Source of the DNA: Candidatus Saccharimonadales bacterium | GTDB lineage: Bacteria; Patescibacteriota; Saccharimonadia; Saccharimonadales; UBA4665 | Direction: 5' to 3' | Length of the DNA: 64,000 nt | Assembly (NCBI GenBank): GCA_036388415.1 | Contig: DASVRW010000002.1 | Span: 975,396 to 1,039,395 of the forward strand | Shown here: piece by piece, positions 59,441 to 60,573 of the stretch | Position numbering within the stretch: the first letter of the stretch is position 1 | Layout of the letters: every line of letters begins with the position of its first letter | The notes under the pieces: model-generated | Databases searched by the model: none | Seen by the model: only the letters and a program-made list of their open reading frames with translations | Told to the model about the DNA's origin: nothing | Program-made: the position numbers and the translations under genes

Positions 59441-59869
59441 TTATTCTGGCTGCAGGACAGTCTTGCAGCTACTACAGTAGCCGTTTAATTCCACAGTGTG
59501 CTGCCGTAGGTCGAAGCCGTATTCTGCCTCGATATCGTGTAATGCTTTCTCAAGCCGGTCGCTCTTGATAGCTATGGATGTACCACATTGCAGGCAAGAG
59601 AAGTGATGATGGTGGGCAGAAAATCGCTCGCTGAGCTCGACACTGCTTTTCATGCCATTCCACACCCGGTGTACGATACCGATTTTTTCAAAGAGCCGGA
59701 TAGTTCTGTATACAGTAACTTTGTCGAGTGCAGGCAAGCTGTATATGAGTTGCTGGACGGTAGCCGGTTCATGCAGGTTTACCAAGGCTTCAAATATGCG
59801 GAGCCGCGGCAATGTCATGCTGTAGCCATGTTTGCCAAGTAATTCTGTAAGCTTTTGAGAAGTCTCCAT
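59441..59869 (-). CDS. Fur-family metalloregulator (possibly Nur- or Zur-like)
   Basis: A 142-aa Fur protein: N-terminal winged helix (MTLPRLRIFEALV, KVTVYRTIRLFEKIGIVHRV), the metal-sensing HHHHFSCLQCG (His86-89, Cys92, Cys95), and a second CxxC (Cys132, Cys135) for structural zinc. Its own promoter (TTGCAA, 17 nt, TACTAT at 59883-59878) gives +1 at 59871, 2 nt before the ATG. Three TTGCAA boxes lie over this region, suggesting autoregulation. The TTGCAA-N5-TTGCAA pair is like the Nur (nickel) box of Streptomyces. Next to a His/Cys-rich protein gene. Confidence 0.93.
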   Translation of the reverse strand: METSQKLTELLGKHGYSMTLPRLRIFEALVNLHEPATVQQLIYSLPALDKVTVYRTIRLFEKIGIVHRVWNGMKSSVELSERFSAHHHHFSCLQCGTSIAIKSDRLEKALHDIEAEYGFDLRQHTVELNGYCSSCKTVLQPE

Positions 59870-59870
59870 A

Positions 59871-59906
59871 TTGCAAAATAGTACACAAATTGCAACTAAT
59901 TTGCAA
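59871..59906. promoter_or_regulatory. TTGCAA operator cluster / shared divergent -35
   Basis: TTGCAA occurs at 59871-59876, 59890-59895 and 59901-59906; the last two are 5 nt apart. The palindromic box 59901-59906 is at -35 for both promoters: 17 nt to TACTAT (59883-59878) for the Fur gene and 17 nt to TAAAAT (59924-59929) for the gene at 59944. A repressor bound here would block both. Confidence 0.7.
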
Positions 59907-59943
59907 ATATAGCTGAGCTTACCTAAAATTCAAGGTACAGCTT

Positions 59944-60573
59944 ATGAAAATATACGATACATTCGATGCGGTAATACACGATTATTTCGAGACAAATGCG
60001 GTAGGGTTCAGCTTTGACACGTGGGCTATCGCGAAGTTTTTGCATACATCTGATGCAGATTACCAGCAATTAGTTGCAACCGGCGGCAACACCCTTGGCT
60101 ATCAGCCGACAATGCTCACGCTTGCAGATCCATTGCAGCAGCAAAAAGATGAAGTAATAATTCGGAATCTTCCGACCTCAACCTATGCCGCAGTCCGCGA
60201 GCAGTATGCGCATCGTTTCATCGACCAGCTGCCTGGTCGGTTTGGGCTGTTTCACAGCGACAAAAAACAAGCCGATGCCATCTTTAACTCCTGGGAAGAA
60301 TTTGCGGGTGAATGGCTGGAGCGGGATGGTCAAAGTTTACTGCCATACAATCTGCCACTGTTATTTGACCATGTCTCAGACGCGGAATACTGGGGCTGGC
60401 AGCAAAAAGGTTTCGATCCTTGCGGTACGCAGCGTTTGATAGTGACGGTGTTTCAATATCGAACTGGCCGGTTCGCCGATGTATTCATAACCAATGTGAC
60501 TGATGCTGAAATGGCCCGTATCCGCATGCTGATCATGAGCAGATTGACACTCGGGATAAACGAAATTTTATGA
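59944..60573 (+). CDS. Hypothetical protein in the Fur divergon, 209 aa
   Basis: Not recognised. A soluble protein with conserved-looking aromatic/acidic patches (NSWEEFAGEWLERDGQSLLP, AEYWGWQQKGFDPCGTQR) and a single Cys. Its promoter shares the TTGCAA -35 with the Fur gene. The ATGA overlap with the His-rich protein gene means the two are coupled, so it likely works in the same metal-linked process. Confidence 0.65.
   Translation: MKIYDTFDAVIHDYFETNAVGFSFDTWAIAKFLHTSDADYQQLVATGGNTLGYQPTMLTLADPLQQQKDEVIIRNLPTSTYAAVREQYAHRFIDQLPGRFGLFHSDKKQADAIFNSWEEFAGEWLERDGQSLLPYNLPLLFDHVSDAEYWGWQQKGFDPCGTQRLIVTVFQYRTGRFADVFITNVTDAEMARIRMLIMSRLTLGINEIL

Follow-up and report, generated by a model that had tools for sequence, protein, structure and literature searches.

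The stretch of DNA analysed here, hereafter the window, comprises 64,000 nucleotides from the genome of a Candidatus Saccharimonadales bacterium. It includes the gene of a Fur-family metalloregulator (fur) that is divergent from a two-gene operon encoding a 209-aa protein and a His-rich protein. The start codons of the divergent genes lie at 59869 (fur, minus strand) and 59944 (partner, plus strand), and the gap between them contains a palindromic box. The key features are listed below.

59441..59869, minus strand: fur, Fur-family metalloregulator of 142 aa, the proposed repressor (PF01475, E 2.1e-18)
59871..59876: additional TTGCAA, between the fur -10 and the fur ATG
59878..59883, minus strand: proposed fur -10, TACTAT, with a spacer of 17 to TTGCAA 59901-59906; the ATG follows 8 nt on
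59890..59895: the other operator half, TTGCAA, within the fur spacer; the -35 of neither gene
59890..59906: proposed operator TTGCAACTAATTTGCAA, a 6-5-6 palindrome; its exact copy occurs once in the window
59901..59906: palindromic TTGCAA, proposed -35 for both divergent promoters, with a spacer of 17 to either -10
59924..59929, plus strand: proposed -10 of the rightward operon, TAAAAT, with a spacer of 17; the ATG follows 14 nt on
59944..60573, plus strand: rightward operon gene 1, 209 aa
60570..62507, plus strand: rightward operon gene 2, His-rich, 645 aa, with a 4-nt overlap with gene 1 (ATGA)

The regulator belongs to the Fur superfamily, whose FUR domain has a winged helix and HHxH/CxxC motifs (PF01475, 67.1 bits against a cut-off of 23.1), and residues H86, H88, H89, C92, C95, C132 and C135 are invariant among 11 aligned sequences taken from 62. 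Its sequence matches in the PDB include Fur and Zur proteins, and its best NCBIfam matches are Fur models, all far under the cut-off. The 209-aa protein has no Pfam or NCBIfam profile matches and no relatives in 97 other genomes. The first 215 aa of the 645-aa protein contain 41 His and 9 Cys, including three HAC-x3-C-x2-H repeats, and this protein has no relatives in 117 other genomes. A different His-rich protein occupies the position equivalent to this operon in one relative (locus L156 of genome G180).

The box and the candidate promoters in the window

The exact 17-mer TTGCAA-N5-TTGCAA occurs once in the window against 0.03 expected (100 shuffles), and the complete layout, ANNNTA-N17-TTGCAA-N17-TANNNT, occurs once in the window and in none of 100 shuffles. 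At up to two mismatches there is no enrichment in the window (6 copies observed, 4.9 expected), so the signal resides in exact and near-exact copies. The possibility that the box is a chance repeat was considered and rejected: the exact copy stands out, though the two-mismatch copies do not.

An earlier note on this DNA had placed the palindromic TTGCAA 59901-59906 at 17 nt from both TACTAT and TAAAAT, and had combined it with 59890-59895 into TTGCAA-N5-TTGCAA. A scripted re-check reproduced the coordinates, the spacers and the composite box exactly. Though both halves of the box read TTGCAA in the window, only the one at 59901-59906 is flanked on either side by a suitably spaced -10-like hexamer. 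The fit to the E. coli consensus is moderate, with TTGCAA matching TTGACA, and TACTAT matching TATAAT, at 4/6 positions each. For this reason a generic sigma-70 scan missed the leftward promoter; it reported the rightward one (9/12), together with a further minus-strand candidate, TTGAAT-16-TATATT, at 59933-59906. Because the partner operon is without relatives, the case for the rightward promoter of the window is one of geometry alone. The TTGCAA at 59871-59876 is a third copy, absent from the earlier note; across the boxed loci described below, TTGC lies no more than 12 nt ahead of the fur start in 52/96, against 1/69 on the partner side.

The 1.14 Mb genome contains three exact boxes. The second, TTGCAACAAATTTGCAA, ends 47 nt upstream of a ZIP transporter gene located apart from fur (locus L002; PF02535, E 1.9e-19), whose sole NCBIfam match, to ZupT, is under the cut-off. 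A 6-codon mini-ORF (L002 1440-1475, minus strand) occupies the position where ZIP genes usually have their leaderless start, and its stop overlaps the ZIP start (ATGA). The third exact box lies between dprA and pth (locus L001), an intergenic gap in which no ORF or gene and no Rfam match was found; it is directly downstream of a promoter-like TTGACA...TAGAAT (L001 1460-1700).

Conservation of the box and of the -35 geometry

Homologues of Fur were detected in 66 of the 98 genomes searched, that of the window included. A scan of named genomes added only two loci, both distant and from Peregrinibacteria/Peribacteraceae; the window's genome yielded no 16S gene, and a TM7 16S primer had no match. 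The comparison covered 110 Fur-family loci, namely the window and its relatives, with some genomes contributing two. The first set comprised 69 fur loci (70 minus L074, a fragmentary second copy with stops in G090). The held-out set comprised 41 loci from a second batch of genomes of the same class, for which the rule was fixed beforehand; the places left out of it were G170 (contig end) and G211, G148, G151, the second place of G167, G164, G155 and G150 (weak). TTGCAA-N5-TYGCAA with at most one mismatch is found upstream of fur in 61/69 loci of the first set and 35/41 of the held-out set, that is, 96/110 in total, counts that do not represent independent events, the loci sharing descent. The distance from box to fur start is 34-40 nt in 81 of these 96 loci. 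Several loci (L160, L170, L175 and L184) have two tandem boxes upstream of fur, the chosen one being 66-71 nt from the start. Genome-wide, exact TTGCAA-N5-TYGCAA occurs in 60/98 genomes against 14/98 for the reversed control. Among the non-fur copies in relatives that were inspected, a part of the total, many lie inside coding sequence or lack the fur-like placement relative to a start codon, and no obvious common target emerged.

The gene-distal TTGCAA of each box served as the reference point for the offsets of TAnnnT. In the first set, TAnnnT is located at a spacer of 17 or 18 on the fur strand in 50/61 loci and on the opposite strand in 44/61, and any other single offset on the partner side accounts for 0 to 6 loci. 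The held-out set gave 22/35 for the partner side. Pooled, the partner-side motif is present at 17-18 in 66/96 loci, against a shuffle mean of 6.1 (maximum 14) and a mean of 5.7 (maximum 17) for other offset pairs on that side, and is missing from 30/96; the fur-side motif is present in 73/96. A single TTGCAA combines a partner -10 at 17/18 with a fur -10 at 16-19 in 64/96 loci. The suggestion in the earlier note that two promoters have a common -35 thus gains further backing from the relatives, where, as read from sequence, one core element is placed to act in two directions, the hallmark of a bidirectional promoter. The partner-side signal recurs in every partner class (ZIP-I 20/24, ZIP-II 19/27, ZnuA 12/12, other 15/33), which makes it less likely that a single sequence was simply inherited beside one gene, an argument limited by the descent of all loci from a common group.

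The two halves of the box differ in their constraints. When a search pattern that treats both halves alike is applied, 97/110 loci match with at most one mismatch. Position 5 of the doubly used half is A in 94 of these 97, so the partner strand retains TTG; in the other half, its mirror position is C in 62/97 and T in 35/97, giving TCG instead of TTG in 62/97. The half predicted to serve two promoters is therefore held to TTG on both strands, and the other half is free of that requirement.

These observations bear on a simpler interpretation, in which the TTGCAA halves constitute an operator only, the -35 contacts are incidental or located elsewhere, and the fixed spacing reflects the positioning of the repressor over each promoter. 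Such an arrangement would account for the 4/6 match of TTGCAA to TTGACA and could draw on the alternative minus-strand candidate at 59933-59906. We nevertheless consider it unlikely, given that two -10 elements lie at an equal 17-18 nt from one half, on both strands and next to unrelated partners, and that the halves are constrained asymmetrically.

Under the preferred reading, with TTGCAA as the -35 for both directions, the position of the start codons is also informative. The first ATG comes 6-7 nt after the -10 ends in 65/96 loci on the fur side and in 42/96 on the partner side, tallies that take the first ATG after the -10 with individual gene starts unchecked. Such distances suggest leaderless mRNAs on both sides, and both are probably leaderless in general across the loci. 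In the window, the fur mRNA is probably leaderless as well, with its ATG 8 nt past the -10; the 14 nt separating -10 and ATG of the partner imply a short leader.

Partner genes and the metal signal

The partners at the 96 boxed loci include 51 ZIP genes, 12 ZnuA-type genes and 33 others, as classified with four probe proteins, so that any ZIP or ZnuA too distant for these probes is counted among the others. This last group contains short-chain dehydrogenases, ParA/ArsA-like ATPases, a heavy-metal P-type ATPase and another His-rich protein. At L192, the gene divergent from fur behind the box encodes a protein of the nicotianamine-synthase family (PF03059, E 3.2e-36), and L185 has a similar-looking partner that matches CntL weakly. 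These two loci, from relatives G139 and G141, could represent a metallophore pathway in very small genomes.

The search for ZIP genes away from fur covered 27 genomes in which no ZIP match adjoined the fur locus examined. Seven were found, of which one (G021) is just downstream of the first gene on the fur-divergent side. Among the six that are apart from fur, five have an upstream box with at most one mismatch and one (G089) has none; the background is 0/1200 stretches, a count biased downward by the exclusion of the best-box stretch of each locus. Thus, when ZIP lies away from fur, the box, judged by its position, tends to accompany it.

What the partners have in common is most simply explained by zinc, which is most likely the signal. 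Going by box position alone, the targets are of the Zur type, with a ZIP or ZnuA partner at 63/96 loci and the ZIP gene of this genome behind an exact box. The protein is probably an autoregulated, zinc-sensing (Zur-like) repressor that would close two promoters via one operator. The regulatory zinc site of Zur uses a Cys ligand (C88 in E. coli, C76 in FurB of M. tuberculosis). The sensing-site Cys was not found in the Fur-family protein, which has Glu78 and Phe83 in that stretch and no Cys before residue 92; Glu78, at the Zur Cys position, is Fur-like, and His33 is not retained in relatives. These features count against a Zur of the textbook kind, and sensing of Mn or Fe would be compatible with them.

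A manganese- or iron-sensing repressor of the Fur/Mur type, with the promoter architecture unchanged, is accordingly an alternative that we regard as somewhat improbable. Apart from Glu78 and the missing Cys, it agrees with the Fur models that lead the sub-threshold NCBIfam matches, and ZIP- and ZnuA-family partners are compatible with it, since proteins of these families transport Mn or Fe too. The ZIP of this genome, however, matches the ZupT model, though under the cut-off, and the His-rich, Cys-containing partner would appear better suited to zinc. Nickel sensing of the Nur type, with the two-way operator likewise unchanged, is very unlikely. The earlier note had called the box Nur-like, and this holds for the motif itself: 59890-59906 matches exactly the consensus tTGCaa-N5-ttGCAA given in the available part of PMC3919588. 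The extension to nickel, for which this motif is the main argument, fares poorly, because the partners are mainly ZIP (51/96) and ZnuA-type (12/96), because no nik or sod genes were recognised among the partner families, part of the other partners having been scanned, and because, among the PDB sequence matches, Fur and Zur proteins outrank the Nur structure 3eyy. Nickel could still be accommodated by the two relatives with nicotianamine-synthase-like partners, nicotianamine being a carrier of nickel as well as zinc, and by the partner at L026, which Pfam assigns to DsbD_2 and which contains a HGITPDEH stretch reminiscent of nickel/cobalt permeases.

A proposed two-way switch and its relation to known systems

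From the box, its geometry and conservation, and the partner genes, we infer, with a probability of roughly 0.7, that the site serves the adjoining Fur-family regulator as its operator and doubles as the core of a two-way promoter, with zinc as the likeliest signal. RNA polymerase would take the palindromic TTGCAA 59901-59906 as a -35 in either orientation and, using the -10 elements 17 nt to each side, would produce two mRNAs, that of fur leaderless and that of the operon for the 209-aa and His-rich proteins with a short leader. When metal is plentiful, a metal-loaded dimer on TTGCAA-N5-TTGCAA would cover the -35 common to both promoters, along with the fur spacer, so that one binding event shuts both. 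When metal is scarce, both promoters would be open, though only a single polymerase could use them at once. Through the second copy of the box, the same control would extend to the distant ZIP importer gene.

The chances seem about even that an entire class of reduced-genome bacteria retains such a switch, with approximately 66 bp separating the start codons, in which one palindromic hexamer is both operator half-site and -35, leaderless genes lie on both sides, polymerase leaves in one direction per event, a single repressor dimer silences both genes, and the partner is swapped over evolutionary time among ZIP, ZnuA, nicotianamine synthase and His-rich proteins. If so, a sequence-defined metal regulon, with a box that predicts targets, would be available for this group, along with a natural, many-times-repeated test of two promoters that have the -35 instead of the -10 in common. 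The consequences that could be probed include an obligatory switching between the two directions, repressor and importer made in matched doses, and repression from a single site. A search of mainly open literature, partly off-topic, found no described case of a two-way promoter with a shared -35 and no description of a zinc/Fur regulon of Saccharibacteria, Patescibacteria or CPR.

The system resembles Streptomyces Nur in the family of the regulator and in the box (PMC3919588, in its accessible part). It differs in its ZIP/ZnuA partners and in the shared -35, the targets of Nur, as far as the accessible text of PMC7055735 goes, being nik transport and sod genes. With Zur it shares the Fur family and, by box position, targets of the ZIP and Znu types. 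According to the portion of the review PMC6103462 at hand, autoregulation is known in some Zur systems and is apparently confined to zur genes that are members of an operon. In the present case, the gene of the regulator and those of its targets face opposite ways, and the Zur sensing Cys was not found. In the bidirectional promoters of E. coli, as presented in the accessible sections of PMC12825309, the -10 is shared through sequence symmetry, polymerases compete, and the starts flank the -10 or fall inside it. The common principle is that symmetry allows one element to work both ways; unlike in those promoters, the element shared here appears to be the -35, the predicted starts are far apart, and the element is part of an operator. 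A Fur-family operator is in itself ordinary; the new aspect is that it apparently also supplies one -35 to two genes, mostly leaderless, in an arrangement conserved with partners that change.
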